DNA of 64,000 bases from Ramlibacter albus (GTDB lineage: Bacteria; Pseudomonadota; Gammaproteobacteria; Burkholderiales; Burkholderiaceae_C), in contig NZ_JACORU010000007.1 in assembly GCF_014297445.1 (NCBI RefSeq), positions 248,001 through 312,000 of the forward strand, written 5' to 3'. Positions 43,050 through 53,126 of the stretch are shown in pieces. The translations under genes were made by a program, and so were the position numbers. The number at the start of each line of letters is the position of its first letter. Within the stretch, counting starts at the first letter, position 1. The notes under the pieces were generated by a model. That model was not told where the DNA came from. It searched no databases and was given only the letters and a program-made list of their open reading frames with translations.

Positions 43050-44825
43050 CTACTTCCGCGCCGGCGGCACGTCCGTACACGTCCCATGCGCAATCTCGGC
43101 CGCCATGCCGATCGATTCGCCGAGCGTCGGGTGCGGATGGATCGTCTTGCCGATGTCGATCTCATCGGCACCCATCTCGATGGCCAGCGCCACCTCGCCG
43201 ATCATGTCCCCGGCATGCGTGCCGACGATCCCGCCCCCAAGGATGCGATGCGTCTCGGCATCGAAGAGCAACTTCGTGAACCCCTCGTCGCGCGTGTTCG
43301 CGATCGCGCGCCCGGAGGCAGTCCACGGGAAGTGCCCCTTCTTGATCGCGATGCCCTGCGCCTTCGCCTGGTCCTCGGTAAGGCCCACCCACGCGACCTC
43401 GGGGTCGGTATAGGCCACGCTCGGGATCACGCGCGCATTGAACGCCGACTTCTCGCCCATCGCGGCTTCGGCGGCCACGTGCGCCTCATGCACCGCCTTG
43501 TGCGCCAGCATGGGCTGGCCCACGATGTCGCCGATGGCGAAGATGTGCGGCACGTTCGTGCGCATCTGGATGTCCACCGGGATGAAGCCGCGGTCGCTGA
43601 CGGTCACGCCCGCCTTCTCCGCGCCGATCTTCTTGCCGTTGGGGCTGCGGCCCACGGCCTGCAGCACCAGGTCATAGAGCTGCGGCTCCTTCGGTGCCTG
43701 CTCGCCCTCGAACTTCACGAGGATGCCGTCCTTCGTCGCTTCCGCGCCGACGGTCTTCGTCTTGAGCATGATGTTGTCGAAGCGCGGCGTGTTCATCTTC
43801 TGCCAGACGCGCACGAGGTCGCGGTCCGCACCCTGCATCAGGCCGTCGAGCATCTCGACGACGTCGAGCCGCGCGCCGAGCGTGGAGTACACGGTGCCCA
43901 TTTCGAGGCCGATGATGCCGCCACCGAGGATCAGCATCTTCTTCGGCTGGCCGCGCAGTTCCAGCGCACCGGTGGAATCCACCACGCGCGGGTCGTCCGG
44001 CATGAAGGGCAGGCGCACGGCCTGGGAACCCGCCGCGATGATGCAGTTGCGGAAGCTGATCTTCTTCTTCGTGCCGGTCTTGTCCTGGCCCGTGCCCGTC
44101 GTCTCTTCGACTTCGATGGTGTGCGGGTCGACGAACGAACCGTAGCCGCGCACGATCGTCACCTTGCGCATCTTGGCCATGGCCGCAAGACCGCCGGTGA
44201 GCTTGCCCACCACCTTGGTCTTGTGCGCCCGCAGCTTGTCGAGGTCCACCTGCGGCTTGCCGAAGGTGATGCCGAGCGTGTCCATGTGGCTCACCTCGTC
44301 CATCACCGCGGCCACGTGCAGCAGCGCCTTGGACGGGATGCAACCCACGTTGAGGCACACGCCGCCGAGCGACGCGTAGCGCTCGACGAGGATGGTCTTC
44401 ATGCCGAGGTCGGCGGCGCGGAACGCGGCGGAGTAGCCACCGGGGCCGGCGCCGAGGACGAGCATGTCGCAGTCGTATTGGCCGGAAGGCGGCGCGATCG
44501 ACGCGGCGGGCTCCTGCTCCCGCCCCCTCGAGGGGGCGGGCTGGGGTGGGGGGGAGTCCATTGCGCCTGGAAGGGGCTGCGTAGCGCTGGTCTCGACCAG
44601 CGCGAGCGTAGACCCTTCGCTGACCTTGTCGCCGACCTTGACCTTGATCTCCTTGACGACCCCGCCATGCGTCGAAGGAATCTCCATCGACGCCTTGTCG
44701 CTCTCCACCGTGATGAGCGATTGCTCCGGCTTGATCGTGTCGCCGGGCTTCACCAGCACTTCGATGACAGCCACGTCCTTGAAGTCCCCGATGTCGGGGA
44801 CTTTCACTTCCGTCGTCGCACTCAT
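43050..44825 (-). CDS. lpdA: Dihydrolipoyl dehydrogenase with N-terminal lipoyl domain (PDH E3)
   Basis: E3 of pyruvate dehydrogenase, 591 residues. An N-terminal lipoyl domain (Lys44 in ESDKASMEIP) is joined by a Pro-rich linker (about 80-117) to the flavoprotein part: GAGPGGYSAAFRAADLG, redox cysteines 157 and 162 ([13 protein letters not shown]), NAD-binding GGGIIGLEMGTVY and the C-terminal HPHPTLGES. Lipoyl-E3 fusions are known from Neisseria and Cupriavidus-type PDH. The linker contains a 22-bp palindrome-derived PAPSRGR. Its start overlaps the BPH stop by 4 bp. Confidence 0.95.
   Translation of the reverse strand: MSATTEVKVPDIGDFKDVAVIEVLVKPGDTIKPEQSLITVESDKASMEIPSTHGGVVKEIKVKVGDKVSEGSTLALVETSATQPLPGAMDSPPPQPAPSRGREQEPAASIAPPSGQYDCDMLVLGAGPGGYSAAFRAADLGMKTILVERYASLGGVCLNVGCIPSKALLHVAAVMDEVSHMDTLGITFGKPQVDLDKLRAHKTKVVGKLTGGLAAMAKMRKVTIVRGYGSFVDPHTIEVEETTGTGQDKTGTKKKISFRNCIIAAGSQAVRLPFMPDDPRVVDSTGALELRGQPKKMLILGGGIIGLEMGTVYSTLGARLDVVEMLDGLMQGADRDLVRVWQKMNTPRFDNIMLKTKTVGAEATKDGILVKFEGEQAPKEPQLYDLVLQAVGRSPNGKKIGAEKAGVTVSDRGFIPVDIQMRTNVPHIFAIGDIVGQPMLAHKAVHEAHVAAEAAMGEKSAFNARVIPSVAYTDPEVAWVGLTEDQAKAQGIAIKKGHFPWTASGRAIANTRDEGFTKLLFDAETHRILGGGIVGTHAGDMIGEVALAIEMGADEIDIGKTIHPHPTLGESIGMAAEIAHGTCTDVPPARK
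44519..44540. repeat. 22-bp perfect palindrome in the lpdA linker
   Basis: CCCGCCCCCT and AGGGGGCGGG flank a central CG, making a perfect palindrome followed by a G-rich run up to about 44554. It encodes residues 96-102 (PAPSRGR) of the PDH lipoamide dehydrogenase. Its make-up resembles the dispersed palindromes whose translation reads PPPQPxPSRGRE. Confidence 0.75.
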
Positions 44826-45412
44826 TTTGTTTCTTTCGCTTTGATCGTGAAGATGTCGCACGGCCCGGCGGAGTTGCGGTCGAACTCGCAACCGGCGGCG
44901 ATCCCGGCTTCCGCCACTTCGCGGGCGGTCTTTGCCTTGGCATAAGCGGCATGCATCGCGCCCAGCGCGAAGCTGCGCCCGGACCCGATCCCCCAGAACT
45001 CCTTGAACTCGAAGACCTCGCGGTACGAGTACAGCCCGTAGATGCCGCTCGCGTTGGCGATGACCACGCTGAACTGGCTGGACTCGTACGGGTCGCTGTC
45101 CTCTTCCTTCGTCTGCAGGAAGAAGTTGTCCTTCAGGTACGGATGCAGCTTGGTGAAGGTGTCGAACACCTCGTCCTTGCTGCCCAGCTTGAGGATCTCG
45201 CGCGGCATCGAGCCCATGGCCTTGCGCAACACCGGGAAGTGCGCCACGGTGCCGGCCATGCCGATGTAGCTGGGGCCGCCGTCGGTCTCGACCTGGAAGA
45301 TCTTGCTGTTGTCCTCGAAGCGGTGGGCCAGGCGGGTGTCCCCGAAAGTAACCAGCGTGTCGGCCGCGATCGCGATCTGGCCCGCTTTTCTCACCACTAC
45401 GACAGTCGTCAT
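44822..45412 (-). CDS. Betaproteobacterial proteasome homolog (BPH), HslV-like N-terminal threonine protease
   Basis: A 196-residue Ntn-hydrolase of the proteasome/HslV family. After Met removal the chain starts with Thr-Thr. In mature numbering Thr1 and Asp17 (IAAD) match HslV, and a Lys at 36 (DNSKIF) corresponds to HslV Lys33 after a three-residue insertion. GIGSG at 141-145 matches the HslV GSG motif. It is longer than HslV (about 175). There is no hslU in the window. Published work on the family (BPH of Thiobacillus and Cupriavidus) describes tetradecameric double rings without a known unfoldase. Here it lies between aceF (22 bp upstream) and lpdA (4-bp overlap), so it is co-transcribed with PDH. 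Confidence 0.88.
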   Translation of the reverse strand: MTTVVVVRKAGQIAIAADTLVTFGDTRLAHRFEDNSKIFQVETDGGPSYIGMAGTVAHFPVLRKAMGSMPREILKLGSKDEVFDTFTKLHPYLKDNFFLQTKEEDSDPYESSQFSVVIANASGIYGLYSYREVFEFKEFWGIGSGRSFALGAMHAAYAKAKTAREVAEAGIAAGCEFDRNSAGPCDIFTIKAKETK

Positions 45413-45434
45413 CTTTGCGTTTGTTGCTTCTTCT

Positions 45435-47081
45435 TCAGAGCAGCACCCGCCGGAAGTCCGCCAGGATCTGCCCCAGGTAGGCGTTGAACCGCGCGGCCGC
45501 CGCGCCGTCGACAGCGCGATGGTCCCAGGAGAGCGACAGCGGCAGCATCAGCCGCGGCTGGAACTGCTTGCCGTCCCACACGGGCTCGGTCGTGCTCTTG
45601 CACACCCCGAGGATAGCGACTTCCGGCGCGTTGATGATGGGTGTGAAGTACCGGCCGCCGATGCCGCCGAGCGAAGAAATCGTAAAAGTTGCACCCGACA
45701 TGTCGGCAGGGCCGAGCTTGCCGTCGCGCGCCTTCTTCGCCAGCTCACCCATTTCCTGGCTGATCTGCAGCACGCCCTTCCTGTCGGCGTCCTTGATCAC
45801 CGGCACCACCAGGCCATTGGGCGTGTCCGCCGCGAAGCCGATGTGCCAGTAGTTCTTCATCACCATCTCGTCGCCGTCGAGCGAGCTGTTGAACTCGGGG
45901 AATTTCTTCAGCGCGGCAACGCTGGCCTTGATGAGGAAGGCCAGCATCGTGACCTTGATGCCGCTCTTCTCGTTTTCCTTGTTGAGCTTGACGCGGAAGG
46001 CTTCGAGCTCGGTGATGTCGGCATCGTCGTGGTTGGTGACGTGCGGGATCATCACCCAGTTGCGGTGCAGGTTGGCGCCGCTGATCTTCTTGATGCGCGA
46101 CAGCGGCTTGCGGTCCACCGGGCCGAACTTCGCGAAGTCGACCTTCGGCCACGGCAGCAGGCCGAGCGCTTCGCCGCCGCCACCCGCCGGCGCTTTCGCC
46201 GACGCAGCCTTCGTCTGCTTGTCACCGGCCATCACGGCCTTGGTGAAGGACTGGATGTCCTCATGCAGGATGCGACCCTTGGGGCCGGAGCCCTTCACTT
46301 CCTCCAGCGGCACGCCGAGCTCGCGCGCGAACTTGCGCACGGACGGCGATGCATGCGGCAGGTTGGTCGTGGGCGCGGTGGGTTCGTGCGGCGGCAGCGC
46401 GGCCGTGGGCGGCGTGCGCTCTTGCGCGGGCGCAGGTGCGCTCGCGGATGCCGTCGCGGGCGCGGGCGCCGCGGCTTGCGCCGCCGGTGCCGGTGCGGCT
46501 GCACCCCCGGACCCTTGAACGATCGCGATGAGGTCGCCGATGTTCACCTTGTCGCCGACCTTGACCTTCAGCTCCTTGAGCACGCCCGCGGCGGACGAGG
46601 GAATCTCCATCGAAGCCTTGTCCGACTCGACGGTGATGAGCGACTGCTCGACCTTGACCGTGTCGCCCGGCTTCACGAGCACTTCGATAACGGCGACGTC
46701 CTTGAAGTCGCCGATGTCGGGGACCTTGACTTCGATCGGGCCGGCGCCAGCGGCCGGCGCCGGCGCGGCGGCCTGCGGTGCCGGCGCTGCTGCTTGCGGC
46801 GCGGGCGCGGGCTGCGCCGCGGGCGCCGGTGCGGCAGCCGCACCAGCAGCGTCGATCACGGCGATCACCGAACCCTCGGAGACCTTGTCGCCCAGCTTGA
46901 CCTTCAGCTCCTTGATCACCCCCGCGTGCGACGACGGGATCTCCATCGACGCCTTGTCGCTCTCGACGGTGAGAAGGGACTGCTCCGCCTTGACGGTGTC
47001 GCCGGGCTTCACCAGCAGCTCGATGACGGCGACGCTCTCGAAGTCCCCGATGTCGGGGACCTTGATTTCAACCAGTGCCAT
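45435..47081 (-). CDS. aceF: Dihydrolipoyl acetyltransferase (pyruvate dehydrogenase E2)
   Basis: E2 core of pyruvate dehydrogenase, 548 residues. Two lipoyl domains with Lys43 and Lys155 (both in ESDKASMEIP) are separated by Ala/Pro linkers. Then come the E1/E3-binding domain (SPSVRKFARELGVPLEEVKGSG in outline) and the acetyltransferase domain ending in LSWDHRAVDGAAAARF (catalytic His521). Starts 27 bp downstream of aceE. Confidence 0.97.
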   Translation of the reverse strand: MALVEIKVPDIGDFESVAVIELLVKPGDTVKAEQSLLTVESDKASMEIPSSHAGVIKELKVKLGDKVSEGSVIAVIDAAGAAAAPAPAAQPAPAPQAAAPAPQAAAPAPAAGAGPIEVKVPDIGDFKDVAVIEVLVKPGDTVKVEQSLITVESDKASMEIPSSAAGVLKELKVKVGDKVNIGDLIAIVQGSGGAAAPAPAAQAAAPAPATASASAPAPAQERTPPTAALPPHEPTAPTTNLPHASPSVRKFARELGVPLEEVKGSGPKGRILHEDIQSFTKAVMAGDKQTKAASAKAPAGGGGEALGLLPWPKVDFAKFGPVDRKPLSRIKKISGANLHRNWVMIPHVTNHDDADITELEAFRVKLNKENEKSGIKVTMLAFLIKASVAALKKFPEFNSSLDGDEMVMKNYWHIGFAADTPNGLVVPVIKDADRKGVLQISQEMGELAKKARDGKLGPADMSGATFTISSLGGIGGRYFTPIINAPEVAILGVCKSTTEPVWDGKQFQPRLMLPLSLSWDHRAVDGAAAARFNAYLGQILADFRRVLL

Positions 47082-47108: not shown

Positions 47109-49820
47109 TTATGCGTACAGGGGGTTGATCTTGTCGGCCTTGATCCCGTACTTCTTGATGGCATCGGCGACCTTCGCAACCGGCACGGTACCGTCTTCCG
47201 ACAGCGCCTTCAAGGCCGCCACGACGATGTAGTGGCGATTCACCTCGAAGTGCTCGCGCAGCTTGCTGCGGAAGTCGCTGCGCCCGAACCCGTCGGTGCC
47301 CAGCACCTTGTACGTGCGGCCCTTGGGCATGAAGGGGCGGATCTGCTCGGCGTACGCCTTCATGTAGTCGGTCGACGCGATCACCGGGCCGTCGTGCTTG
47401 TCCAGCTGCTGCGCGACGAAGGAGACGCGCGGCTTGTCGGTGGGGTGCAGGAGGTTGAAGCGCTCGCAGTCGAGGCCCTCGCGCGCCAGCTCGTTGAAGC
47501 TCGGGCAGCTCCACACTTCGGCGGCGACGCCCCAGTCCTTTTCCAGCAGGTCGCGCGCGGCGATCGACTCGCGCAGGATCGTGCCGCTGCCCAGCAGGTT
47601 CACGCGCGGGCCCTTGGCGATCTTGGGCGCGTCGAGCAGCGAGTACATGCCCTTGACGATCTGCTGCTCGGTGCCGGGCTTCAGGCCGGGCATCGGGTAG
47701 TTCTCGTTGAGCAGGGTGATGTAGTAGAAGACGTTCTCCTGCTTCTCCACCATGCGGCGCAGGCCATCCTGCATGATCACCGCCACTTCGTGCGCGAAGG
47801 TCGGGTCGTAGGAGATGCAGTTGGGGATGGTGCCCGCCATGATGTGGCTGTGGCCGTCCTCGTGCTGCAGGCCTTCGCCGTTGAGCGTCGTGCGCCCCGA
47901 CGTGCCGCCCAGCAGGAAGCCGCGCGCCTGCATGTCGCCCGCCGCCCAGCACAGGTCGCCCACGCGCTGCAGCCCGAACATCGAGTAGTAGATGTAGAAC
48001 GGGATCATGATGCGGTTGCTCGTCGAGTACGACGTGGCCGCGGCGATCCAGCTGGCCATGCCGCCCGCTTCGTTGATGCCCTCCTGCAGGATCTGGCCGG
48101 CCACGTCTTCCTTGTAGTAGGAGACCTGGTCGCGGTCCTGCGGCGTGTACTTCTGGCCTTCGGGGTTGTAGATGCCGATCTGGCGGAACAGGCCTTCCAT
48201 GCCGAAGGTGCGCGCCTCGTCGACGAGGATGGGCACCGTGCGCGGGCCCAGCTCCTTGTCGCGCAGCAGCGTGGTGAGGAAGCGCACGTAGGCCTGCGTC
48301 GTGCTGATCTCGCGGCCTTCGGCCGTCGGGTCCGTCACGGCCTTGAACGCGTCGAGGCCCGGCACCTTCAGCTGCTCGTCCGCCTTGGGGCGGCGCTTGG
48401 GCAGGTAGCCGCCGAGGGCCTGGCGGCGCTCGTGCAGGTACTTCATCTCCGGTGTGTGCTCTTCCGGCTTGTAGAACGGGATCTCGGCGAGCTTGTCGTC
48501 CGGGATCGGGATGTTGAAGCGGTCGCGGAAGGCCTTGATGTCGTCGTCGCCCAGCTTCTTGGCCTGGTGCGCGATGTTCTTGCCCTCGCCCGCCTTGCCC
48601 ATGCCGAAGCCCTTGACGGTCTTCACGAGCAGCACGGTGGGCTGGCCCTTGGTGGTCGTCGCGCGATGGAAGGCCGCGTAGACCTTCTGCGGGTCGTGGC
48701 CGCCGCGGTTCAGGCGCCAGATGTCGTCGTCGCTCATCTTCGCGACCATCTCCAGCGCCTTGGGGTGGCGGCCGAAGAAGTTCTTGCGCACGAAGGCACC
48801 GTCGTTGGCCTTCATGGCCTGGTAGTCGCCGTCGAGCGTCTCCAGCATGATCTTGCGCAGGATGCCTTCTTTGTCGCGCGCGAGCAGCGGGTCCCAGTAG
48901 CTGCCCCAGATCAGCTTGATGACGTTCCAGCCGGCGCCGCGGAACTCGCCTTCCAGCTCCTGGATGATCTTGCCGTTGCCGCGCACCGGGCCGTCCAGGC
49001 GCTGCAGGTTGCAGTTGACGACGAAGATCAGGTTGTCGAGCTTCTCGCGGGCGGCCACGCCGATCGCGCCGAGCGATTCCACTTCGTCCATCTCGCCGTC
49101 GCCGAGGAACGCCCACACCTTGCGGTTCTCGGTGTTGGCGATGCCGCGCGCGTGCAGGTACTTCAGGAAGCGCGCCTGGTAGATCGCCATCAGCGGGCCA
49201 AGGCCCATCGACACCGTGGGGAACTGCCAGAACTCGGGCATCAGCTTCGGGTGGGGGTAGGAGCTCAGCCCCTTGCCATCCACTTCCTGCCGGAAGTTGA
49301 GCAGCTGCTCCTCGCTGATGCGGCCTTCCATGAAGGCACGCGCGTAGATGCCGGGCGCGCTGTGGCCCTGGATGTAGAGGCAGTCGCCGCCGTGGTTCTC
49401 GTTCTCGGCGTGCCAGAAGTGGTTGAAGCCCGCACCCAGCATGGTGGCGAGCGAGGCGAAGGAGGAGATGTGGCCGCCGAGGTCGCCGCCGTCCTCGGGG
49501 TGCAGGCGGTTGGCCTTCACGACCATCGCCATCGCGTTCCAGCGCATGTAGGCGCGCAGGCGCTCTTCCATCTCGAGGTTGCCGGGGCAGCGCTCCTCGT
49601 CGCCCGGCTCGATGGTGTTGACGTAGCCTGTCGTGGCCGAGAACGGCATGTCGATGCCGTGCTGCCGCGCTTCCTCGAGCAGCTGCTCGATCAGGAAGTG
49701 GCCGCGTTCGCGGCCCTCGGATGCGATGACGGCGCCGAGGGCGTCGAGCCATTCACGGGTTTCCTGGGCATCCGCGTCGTTGGCGGCGGCACCGAAGAGT
49801 TTCTCGGGTTGTGCAGACAT
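47109..49820 (-). CDS. aceE: Pyruvate dehydrogenase E1, homodimeric type
   Basis: ThDP-dependent decarboxylase that feeds pyruvate into acetyl-CoA. The 903 residues match the AceE (homodimeric) type. Motifs: SSYPHPKLMPEFWQFPTVSMGLGP, the ThDP/Mg-binding FLGDGEMDE ... NLIFVVNCN, and GTSGRTTLNGEGLQHEDGHS. First gene of aceE-aceF-BPH-lpdA; divergent from a membrane sensor kinase. Confidence 0.97.
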   Translation of the reverse strand: MSAQPEKLFGAAANDADAQETREWLDALGAVIASEGRERGHFLIEQLLEEARQHGIDMPFSATTGYVNTIEPGDEERCPGNLEMEERLRAYMRWNAMAMVVKANRLHPEDGGDLGGHISSFASLATMLGAGFNHFWHAENENHGGDCLYIQGHSAPGIYARAFMEGRISEEQLLNFRQEVDGKGLSSYPHPKLMPEFWQFPTVSMGLGPLMAIYQARFLKYLHARGIANTENRKVWAFLGDGEMDEVESLGAIGVAAREKLDNLIFVVNCNLQRLDGPVRGNGKIIQELEGEFRGAGWNVIKLIWGSYWDPLLARDKEGILRKIMLETLDGDYQAMKANDGAFVRKNFFGRHPKALEMVAKMSDDDIWRLNRGGHDPQKVYAAFHRATTTKGQPTVLLVKTVKGFGMGKAGEGKNIAHQAKKLGDDDIKAFRDRFNIPIPDDKLAEIPFYKPEEHTPEMKYLHERRQALGGYLPKRRPKADEQLKVPGLDAFKAVTDPTAEGREISTTQAYVRFLTTLLRDKELGPRTVPILVDEARTFGMEGLFRQIGIYNPEGQKYTPQDRDQVSYYKEDVAGQILQEGINEAGGMASWIAAATSYSTSNRIMIPFYIYYSMFGLQRVGDLCWAAGDMQARGFLLGGTSGRTTLNGEGLQHEDGHSHIMAGTIPNCISYDPTFAHEVAVIMQDGLRRMVEKQENVFYYITLLNENYPMPGLKPGTEQQIVKGMYSLLDAPKIAKGPRVNLLGSGTILRESIAARDLLEKDWGVAAEVWSCPSFNELAREGLDCERFNLLHPTDKPRVSFVAQQLDKHDGPVIASTDYMKAYAEQIRPFMPKGRTYKVLGTDGFGRSDFRSKLREHFEVNRHYIVVAALKALSEDGTVPVAKVADAIKKYGIKADKINPLYA

Positions 49821-49876: not shown

Positions 49877-49971
49877 CGAGTCTCTCACAGAATTCTTCAC
49901 ATTTCAAATGGTGCCGACTGGTTTCATAATGTGGGTTTTACGTAGCCAGCCCGGCCTACACTAGCGGTTTG

Positions 49972-52503
49972 ATGCAAGACAACCTTCCGGCCCCGGACCA
50001 AGAGCCCGAGCCCGCCGCCCCGCCCGCCTGGTGGCGGCACTGGTGGCGGCGCCAGACGCCGACCCGCCAGGACCGCTTCGCGATGCTCGCGCCGCTCGCC
50101 GCGGTGCTGCTCTTCCTCGCCGCCATCGTGTCGGCCTTCTGGTACCTGCGGCTGGAGGAGATGGACCGCGAGCAGGAGGCCGTCAAGCGCGACGTCGAGT
50201 ACGCGCAGCAGCGCGTGCGTTTGCGCCTGCTGGAGCGGCAGGAGCAGCTGATGCGCCTGGCGCGCGACGTGGCCAACAAGGAGGTGGACCCCGAGGAGTT
50301 CATGGGCCGCGCCGAGTCGATGGTGGTGCAATACCCGGAGCTACAGGTGCTGACGTGGATCGACGAGCGGCGGCGCATCAAGGCCACCTACTCGGCGCCC
50401 AGCGTTTCGAGCAACAACATGCGGGCCAACGGCGAGATCCTGCGGCCGGGCGAAACCGAGAGCATGTACAGCCTGGCGCGCGACCTGCAGCAGCCGGTCT
50501 ATTCGCAGCCCGCGGCGGGTGCCGAGCGCGGCCTGCTGCAATTGCACGTGCCGATGACCGACCAGGGGCGCTTCGGTGGCGTGGTGCTCGGCGAGTATTC
50601 GATCGACGGACTGCTGCGCTATGGCGTACCGGCCGAAGTGGCCGCGAAGTACGCCGTGGCGCTGCTCGACGGCAAGGGCCGCGTGATCGCGGGCACCTCG
50701 GTGCCGCCGCGCAACCCGGCGACGCAGTTGCTGCCGTGGGCCGCGCAGCCCAACGAATACGAAGTGCCCGTCTCGCCCGTGGGCAACGGGCTGATCCTGC
50801 GCGCGCAGGCGTATCGCACCGGCCTCGGCGTGATCGGCAGCGGGTTGTTCTGGCTGGTGGGTGCGCTCTCCGCGATGACGGCGTGGATGCTGATCGCGAA
50901 CTGGCGGCACACGCGCCGCCGCGTGCAGGCGCAGCACGCGCTGGTGGCCGAGACCAACTTCCGCCGTGCGATGGAGAACTCCATGCTCACCGGCATGCGC
51001 GCGCTGGACCACCAGGGCCGCATCACTTACGTGAACGCCGCGTTCTGCCAGATGACGGGCTGGAGCGAGGCGGAGCTCGTGGGCCGCACGCCGCCCTTCC
51101 CGTATTGGCCCGACGAAGACCGCGACATGCTCGCGGCGCGCCTCGAAGACGAGCTCAACGGCCGCACCGCGCCGGGCGGCCTGCAGGTGCGCGTGAAGCG
51201 CCGCGACGGTTCGCTCTTCGATGCGCGTTTGTACGTGTCGCCGCTCGTGGATGCCAAGGGCCACCAGACCGGCTGGATGACGTCGATGACGGACATCACC
51301 GAGCCGAACCGCATCCGGGAGCAGTTGCAGGCGTCGCACGAGCGCTTCACGACCGTGCTGGAAGCATTGGATGCATCTGTTTCCGTCGCGCCGCTCGGCA
51401 GCGAAGAGCTGCTCTTCGCCAACAAGCTCTATCGGCTGTGGTTCGGTGGGCAGGCCGCGGGCCACTTGCAGATGGTGGCGCAGGCTGGCGTTCCGGCGCA
51501 GCGGCCCGAACAGACGCTCGACGACGTCGACGCGTTCGCCGGACTGCCGACCGGCACCCTCACGACCGCGCAATCGGAGAACGCGGAGATCTACGTGCCC
51601 GAGCTCGGCAAATGGCTCGAAGTGCGGTCGCGCTACCTCAACTGGGTGGACGGGCGCCTCGCGCAGATGGTGATCGCCACCGACATCACGCCGCGCCGCC
51701 ACGCGGAAGAGCAATCGGCCGCGCAGGCCGAGCGCGCGCAATCCGCCAGCCGCCTCGTGACCATGGGCGAGATGGCCTCGAGCGTCGCGCACGAGCTCAA
51801 CCAGCCGCTCACCGCCATCCTCAACTACAGCAACGGCCTCGTCTCGCGGATCAAGAGCAAGCAGATCAACGAGGAGGACCTGCTGGCCGCGCTCGACAAG
51901 ACGGCACGGCAGGCGCAGCGCGCGGGCCAGATCATCCAGCGCATCCGCTCCTTCGTGAAACGCAGCGAACCCAACCGCACGCCGTCGGACGTGCACGTGA
52001 TGGTGAACGAGGCGCTCGAGCTCGCCGAGATCGAGCTGCGCCGACGCAACGTTCGCCTGTCGCACTACGTCGCCGCGCGCCTGCCCAAGCTGATGGTGGA
52101 CCCGATCCTCATCGAGCAGGTGCTGGTGAACCTGCTGAAGAACGCCGCCGAATCCATCGAGCACGCCAAGCGGCCCGCGAGCCGGCGCAGCGTGGAGCTG
52201 CGCGCGATCCCGAAGCAGGTGGACGACCAGCAGGTGGTGGAGTTCTCGGTGCTCGACTCGGGCTCGGGCCTCGCGCCCGAAGTGATGGACCGGTTGTACG
52301 AGGCCTTCTTCTCGACGAAGGTGGAAGGCATGGGCATCGGCCTGAACCTGTGCCGCAGCATCGTGGAGTCGCACCACGGGAGGATGCACGCGGAGAACAT
52401 CTACAATGGGGTGGAAGTCGCCGGGTGCCGTTTTTCCTTCTGGATACCGGTCTCCGGCGCTATCAATACAGTAGCAGGCAAGGACGCCGGGGTGACAGTA
52501 TGA
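49972..52503 (+). CDS. Membrane PAS sensor histidine kinase
   Basis: An 843-residue hybrid of sensing modules: cytoplasmic Pro-rich N terminus, membrane segment at about 36-58, periplasmic sensor region to about 285, second membrane segment near 285-305, a PAS domain (about 331-440, [18 protein letters not shown]), a second, degenerate PAS (about 455-575), HisKA with His607 in [10 protein letters not shown], and HATPase_c ([31 protein letters not shown]). This layout is FixL/DctB-like. The start is the ATG at 49972, not the TTG just before it. It is divergent from aceE and overlaps its response regulator by 4 bp. Confidence 0.93.
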
Positions 52504-53126
52504 GTTTGATTCCCAAAAAGGGAACCGTGTACGTCGTCGACGACGACGAGGCCGTCCGCGATTCGCTGCAGTGGCTGCTGGAGGGCAAGGACTACCGCGT
52601 CCGCTGCTTCGACTCCGCCGAATCCTTCCTCGCCCGCTACGACCCGCGCGAGGTGGCCTGCCTGATCGTCGACATCCGCATGGGCGGCATGACCGGGCTG
52701 GAGCTGCAGGACCGTCTGGTCGAGCGCAAGTCGCCGCTGCCCATCGTCTTCATCACAGGCCACGGCGACGTGCCGATGGCGGTGAACACGATGAAGAAGG
52801 GCGCGATGGACTTCATCCAGAAGCCCTTCAAGGAAGACGAGCTGGTGTCGCTGGTCGAGCGCATGCTCGAGCGCGCGAAGGACACGTTCGCCGAATACCA
52901 GTCGCAGGCCAGCCGCGACGCGCTGCTGTCCAAGCTGACCTCGCGCGAGGCGCAGGTGCTCGAGCGCATCGTCGCGGGCCGCCTGAACAAGCAGATCGCC
53001 GACGACCTGGGCATCAGCATCAAGACGGTGGAGGCGCACCGCGCCAACATCATGGAGAAGTTGAACGCCAACACCGTGGCCGACCTGCTGAAGATCGCGC
53101 TCGGCCAGACACCCCCGAAAGCCTGA
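52500..53126 (+). CDS. FixJ-family response regulator
   Basis: A 208-residue regulator: receiver with Asp58 ([13 protein letters not shown]), Thr/Lys switch residues (FITGHGD; Lys108 in FIQKPF), and a C-terminal LuxR-type HTH ([15 protein letters not shown] ... [15 protein letters not shown]). Partner of the preceding kinase by its 4-bp ATGA overlap. Its stop shares one base with the folD start (TGATG), so kinase, regulator and folD are translationally linked. Confidence 0.95.

Follow-up and report, generated by a model that had tools for sequence, protein, structure and literature searches.

A BPH-family proteasome-like gene in the pyruvate dehydrogenase operon of Ramlibacter albus and the operon contexts of its relatives

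The gene between aceF and lpd

The window analyzed here, a 64,000-nucleotide stretch of Ramlibacter albus contig NZ_JACORU010000007.1, carries the genes for the E1, E2, and E3 components of pyruvate dehydrogenase (PDH), all of which exceed the cut-offs of their NCBIfam equivalogs (TIGR00759, TIGR01348, and TIGR01350). Between the E2 and E3 genes lies bph, which encodes a putative proteasome-like protease (Table 1). The first-pass annotation, made from the letters alone, had described an HslV-like threonine protease of 196 residues at this position, 22 bp behind aceF and overlapping lpd by 4 bp, with Thr1, Asp17, a Lys at mature position 36, and a GSG motif. Recomputation returns the same coordinates, spacing (+22 and -4), length, and residues (the GSG motif being G142-S143-G144 in mature numbering), and adds the strand, minus, which that annotation had omitted. 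The ATGA overlap is consistent with translational coupling of bph to lpd. Ala/Pro-rich linkers are visible in the E2 sequence and are probably disordered. Upstream of aceE and divergent from it, frames at 49969-53126 on the plus strand resemble, by eye, a PAS sensor kinase and a response regulator.

Table 1. Features of the bph locus and the PDH operon in the window
Feature	Position	Strand	Basis
bph, putative proteasome-like (BPH) protease, 196 codons including Met, mature Thr1	44822-45412	-	ORF, PDB, PF00227
bph start codon ATG	45412-45410	-	
bph stop codon TGA	44824-44822	-	
lpd start codon ATG	44825-44823	-	
ATGA overlap of bph stop and lpd start, 4 bp	44822-44825	-	sequence
aceF-bph gap, 22 bp	45413-45434	-	sequence, recomputed +22 and -4
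lpd, dihydrolipoyl dehydrogenase (E3), N-terminal lipoyl domain	43050-44825	-	TIGR01350 484 bits, PF00364 residues 6-75
aceF, dihydrolipoyl acetyltransferase (E2), two lipoyl domains	45435-47081	-	TIGR01348 745 bits, PF00364 x2
aceE, pyruvate dehydrogenase E1	47109-49820	-	TIGR00759 1441 bits

What kind of protease does bph encode? A PDB search at E 0.001 matched only the two solved BPHs, 5ovu from Cupriavidus metallidurans (Cm-BPH; 2e-63 over residues 2-192) and 5ovs/5ovt from Thiobacillus denitrificans (Td-BPH; 4e-31 for 5ovs). PF00227 scores 27.2 bits, just over its gathering score of 22.4, and the HslV equivalogs give 27.2 and 26.1 bits against cut-offs of 137 and 157.75. The catalytic residues are accompanied by an acidic pore loop, KEEDSDPYE; the ATG immediately precedes Thr1, leaving no propeptide; and the protein is nested within the BPH tree in both of our reconstructions. 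Among the best 80 of 173 named relatives, a set biased toward close kin, the closest are from Ramlibacter, at up to 95% identity. By these sequence criteria the window gene is a member of the BPH family, as first proposed.

The absence of hslU nearby, also pointed out by the first-pass annotation, holds, since the neighbors of bph are aceF and lpd. The genome contains three PF00227 loci, namely BPH, HslV, and Anbu. On another contig lies HslV (282 bits, TIGR03692) with HslU (654 bits, TIGR00390) behind it, and the Anbu (L173:5719-6534) reaches 1e-94 in its matches to solved Anbu structures. Given the separate HslV-HslU pair, the window gene is not the genome's HslV, and the case in which it was to be simply that enzyme is void. 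Weak matches to HslV models and HslV-like catalytic residues might still suggest a displaced HslV working with HslU, but the complete pair elsewhere refutes it as the only HslV, its scores lie below the HslV cut-offs, and HslU was not found with Cm-BPH (PMC5777263), leaving this reading practically no probability. Nor is BPH a substitute for HslV in the order at large, because 53 of the 57 BPH-bearing genomes in our order sample also keep HslV (the exceptions being G024, G046, G068, and G126), compared with 65 of the 93 without BPH.

The window protein shares with Cm-BPH its family, acidic loop, lack of a propeptide, and PDC operon; Cm-BPH comes from another species. It shares family and catalytic residues with Td-BPH, which is encoded in an argG operon rather than with PDH. 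With HslV, from which BPH descends according to Fuchs et al. (PMC5777263), it has in common Thr1, Asp17, and the Lys base, but it differs in lacking an adjacent hslU, in scoring below HslV cut-offs, and in belonging to an organism with its own HslVU. Anbu shares the proteasome-like superfamily but is a separate gene of the same genome.

The literature on Cm- and Td-BPH, the only two for which the architecture is published, describes a heptameric double ring, a tetradecamer, with internal active sites as in the proteasome and HslV, and an exposed Thr1 that is labelled by epoxomicin (PMC5777263). If the form of these two relatives holds for the window protein, it would be a homomeric, double-ring, N-terminal-nucleophile protease derived from HslV, matured by removal of the start Met alone, with Thr1 as the nucleophile, Lys36 as the base, and Asp17 as the third residue. 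No AAA+ or ATPase candidate for BPH is reported in section 6 of PMC5777263. BPH would act without an AAA+ unfoldase, which should limit it to disordered, damaged, or small substrates that enter past the acidic pore loop.

Persistence and limits of the PDH linkage

BPH occurs in 40 of 150 genomes of the window's own family (36 of the 133 that remain when 17 genomes below 90% completeness or above 5% contamination are set aside; 12 of the 150 show no strong aceF match). The gene lies behind aceF in 40/40 and in front of lpd in 39/40, the remaining contig ending at bph. The expected aceF-bph-lpd order therefore persists wherever BPH occurs in this sample, and the opposite picture, BPH genes scattered among relatives with no PDH linkage, is rejected. 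Among the best 80 of 173 named relative loci, aceF is upstream in 80 and lpd downstream in 78, the other two (L019 and L037) stopping before lpd.

In 150 genomes sampled from the order, mostly from other families, the distribution is different. Here 57 genomes carry BPH, in 57 places besides the window's own gene (one genome has two): five PDH-linked, in families f3 and f8, 20 in an arg context (ARG), 20 in an Hsp33 context (HSP33), and 12 classed as other. Context was read as far as each stretch extends, and within the stretches examined none of the 52 non-PDH places has aceF upstream or lpd downstream. Because this sample comes mostly from other families, the low PDH share weighs lineages and not events. 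In two further genomes, of family f32, aceF precedes bph and lpd comes after it.

In quick tree searches with SH-aLRT support only, all 29 distinct PDH-linked BPH rows fall on one side of a branch with a support of 99, and all 13 do so again in the wider tree. The alignment dropped BPHs shorter than 170 residues (L039, L211, and L212) and identical copies, leaving 162 of 176, and the broken copy at L303 was excluded from the wider tree. Since the PDH-linked BPHs form one clade, we read the linkage as a single capture followed by inheritance; bph would have entered the PDH operon once, in the ancestor of this burkholderialean clade. The linkage is strong inside that clade and unseen outside it.

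The gene bears the marks of selection. Comparison of the window bph with 15 relatives gives dN/dS values of 0.055-0.119, indicating purifying selection, and this together with the gene order preserved in 40 family genomes argues that the gene is not a chance reading frame. Across 110 distinct linked sequences, Thr1 and Lys36 are present in all and Asp17 in 108, being replaced by Glu in the PDH-linked L078 and L210; in the pore loop, E102 and E109 are found in 110/110 and D106 in 109/110. A bph/lpd junction could be measured in 106 linked loci, the window included, and with the lpd start picked by script 57 of them show an overlap of exactly 4 bp. Between aceF and bph, the median distance is 14 bp (n=111); as the linked loci are related, these junction counts are not independent. 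Where the overlap exists, bph is probably translationally coupled to E3, so that in roughly half the linked loci, with the stop fused to the lpd start, E3 translation would follow that of bph.

What occupies the slot in relatives without bph? A BPH match is absent from 110 of the 150 family genomes, and the junction downstream of aceF was read in 40 of these, mostly the less fragmented ones. In 37 of the 40, lpd directly follows aceF, with an estimated gap of 93 bp or less; of the other three, L231 and L239 carry another frame in the slot, and L235 has no lpd in its stretch. The frames in the slot, both on the aceF strand, span about 648-1343 in L231 and 729-1613 in L239. On a tree of lpd with 82 rows, from which L235 is missing as it has no lpd nearby, the presence of BPH changes at least 9 times if starred branches only are counted and 18 times as drawn. 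This pattern fits repeated clean loss, regain by whole-operon exchange being another route; as the tree is one of lpd and not of species, it does not separate the two. Separately, a pairing of BPH with lipoyl-bearing E3 is unsupported: among the 39 BPH-less relatives with lpd after aceF, 38 lpd matches start at query residues 3-6, with the lipoyl domain included. The mixture of PDH operons with and without bph inside one family provides a natural experiment on function.

Arg, Hsp33, and riboflavin-operon contexts

Where else does bph reside? Fuchs et al., who credit Valas and Bourne 2008, describe three contexts, the argG operon, the PDC operon of C. metallidurans, and Hsp33 (PMC5777263), and the embedding of BPH in a PDH operon has thus been in print since 2017-18. 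In our order sample, the arg context reads argG-bph-yajQ, usually preceded by argD and argF, with argG upstream in 20 places and a same-strand yajQ downstream in the same 20, once at a distance of 2.8 kb. The text of PMC5777263 names argG, argD, and argF and does not name yajQ, the gene that follows bph at the ARG loci L150-L171. hslO, encoding Hsp33, lies downstream of bph in 20 places. For ArgG, YajQ, and Hsp33, a single example of each was tested and scored above cut-off. Among the 12 other places, L155 belongs to the ARG clade and is counted as other because its stretch starts 140 bp before bph, and in four places an S4 motif resembling that of Hsp15 follows bph at a distance of 9-70 bp; one such frame, cut at the motif, scores 93 bits with the Hsp15 model, below the cut-off of 148.

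A jump of bph into PDH from an adjacent arg operon has too little support: argF-argG lies beside PDH in one of the five f3/f8 genomes read, at L225 (G002), where it is divergent and adjoins the bph-bearing PDH operon. The argD matches in two other f3/f8 genomes are weak (38-40% identity) and are probably paralogues.

When 274 genomes of the class were searched with a profile (E 1e-20), 36 gave a match, 35 of them besides the window's own genome. Of these 35 other gammaproteobacteria, 24 carry the match behind ribD of the riboflavin operon, 23 copies being intact (L269-L290 and L292) and one broken (L303, G480). At L282, the distance from ribD is 0.3 kb. The next gene is ribE in 22 of the 23 intact loci (L285 ends before it), and a ribB or ribBA frame is present in 21; RibD, RibE, and the RibB domain were checked on L269 and lie above cut-off. 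In a phylum sample of 398 genomes (E 1e-25), the 12 genomes with a match all belong to this class. The main text of PMC5777263 and of PMC8665760, figures and supplements aside, does not mention the riboflavin operon, and a literature search over titles and the beginnings of abstracts, mostly outside subscription journals, did not find the ribD-bph-ribE arrangement. It is a fourth BPH context and the new lead of this survey, and it supplies a set of hosts and neighbors independent of those above.

Published accounts hold that BPHs outside the Betaproteobacteria carry Ser1. Ser directly follows the start codon in 23/23 intact riboflavin-operon copies, and the 11 other matches of the 35 have Ser in five and Thr in six. 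The six Thr1 rows (L293, L296-L299, and L302) are more distant and sit on long branches; taken at face value they contradict the rule, but they may lie outside BPH proper. Three Burkholderiales BPHs (L149, L150, and L163) carry Ser1, again contrary to the rule, the GTDB order possibly differing in scope from the Betaproteobacteria. Rooting with HslV made long branches meet, and the tree therefore gives no polarity for Ser1/Thr1 or for the order of contexts.

Is PDH a substrate or an expression partner?

Clues to the role of BPH are few, and its operon context is among them. Neither PMC5777263 nor PMC8665760 names a BPH substrate in its text, and the latter, a 2021 survey, reports no function-suggesting genomic contexts for its new proteasome homologues. 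We consider it likely that bph, captured once long ago, encodes an accessory protease that works without an unfoldase and is expressed together with PDH, and not a dedicated PDH factor. The gene would be retained in its slot by co-transcription with a steadily used operon, and it would be accessory in that lpd directly follows aceF where bph is absent; PDH would be its expression partner and not its dedicated substrate. Linkage in one clade is what we would expect of a bph with its own function profiting from a steadily expressed operon, and it does not single out PDH as a substrate; as one inherited event, it is weak evidence for one. However, retention of the slot in 40/40 genomes and the recurrent ATGA would also be expected of a PDH-specific partner, and proteolysis by BPH is itself unproven, the solved BPHs having shown no activity on casein or on various peptides (PMC5777263).

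The first-pass annotation had gone further and tied the substrate or regulator of BPH to the PDH complex. Its identification of a BPH distinct from HslV and its persistent gene order stand; the tie to PDH is unsupported, though not refuted, in view of a single capture, the other contexts, the 110 of 150 family genomes without BPH, and a negative pull-down. In the form of dedicated quality control, BPH would remove unassembled, oxidised, or unlipoylated E2 or E3, for example by cutting the Ala/Pro-rich linkers of E2, which, if disordered, would need no unfoldase. Such a role would suit the constant position behind aceF, with lpd next in all but the one family genome whose contig ends, the exact 4-bp overlap in 57/106 loci, and the mention by Fuchs et al. 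of carbonylated PDC as a degradation target (PMC5777263). In C. metallidurans, however, pull-downs recovered no PDC subunit with BPH, nor HslU (PMC5777263, section 6), and carbonylation patterns were unchanged; the pull-down is a single result from another genus with data not shown. BPH also lies outside PDH in 52 of the 57 non-own places of the order sample, and 37 of the 40 BPH-less relatives read pass directly from aceF to lpd. We regard dedicated quality control of PDH as very unlikely.

Must BPH be a general protease at all? The inertness of the solved BPHs despite an exposed, epoxomicin-reactive Thr1 would also suit a peptide ligase or transpeptidase, or a highly specific processing enzyme, and connectase, of a proteasome-like family in the same superfamily, is a ligase (PMC8665760). 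Set against this are the double ring with internal active sites, resembling the proteasome and HslV, and the lack of any known ligation substrate, and we think such an activity quite improbable. A purely neutral hitchhiker, kept for an unrelated function of its own in a location without functional meaning, is unlikely as well. Contexts do vary between clades and are inherited within them, as it would predict, but the exact -4 overlap with lpd recurs and bph sits in the interior of PDH, arg, and rib operons alike, which suggests that being expressed together with core genes matters.

A broader reading, which we offer tentatively and consider rather improbable, is that BPH settled separately inside several core operons (PDH, argFG-yajQ, hslO/hslR, and ribD-bph-ribE) and was stably inherited in each. 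If so, the protease would do work that is tied to growth and needs no ATP, for instance removing failed assemblies of enzymes made in large amounts, and the host operon would matter for its level of expression. The Ser1 branch of the riboflavin operon would then be a separate variant in which to seek a substrate. At L303, what is left of a broken BPH gene still stands between ribD and ribE, which suggests decay in place.
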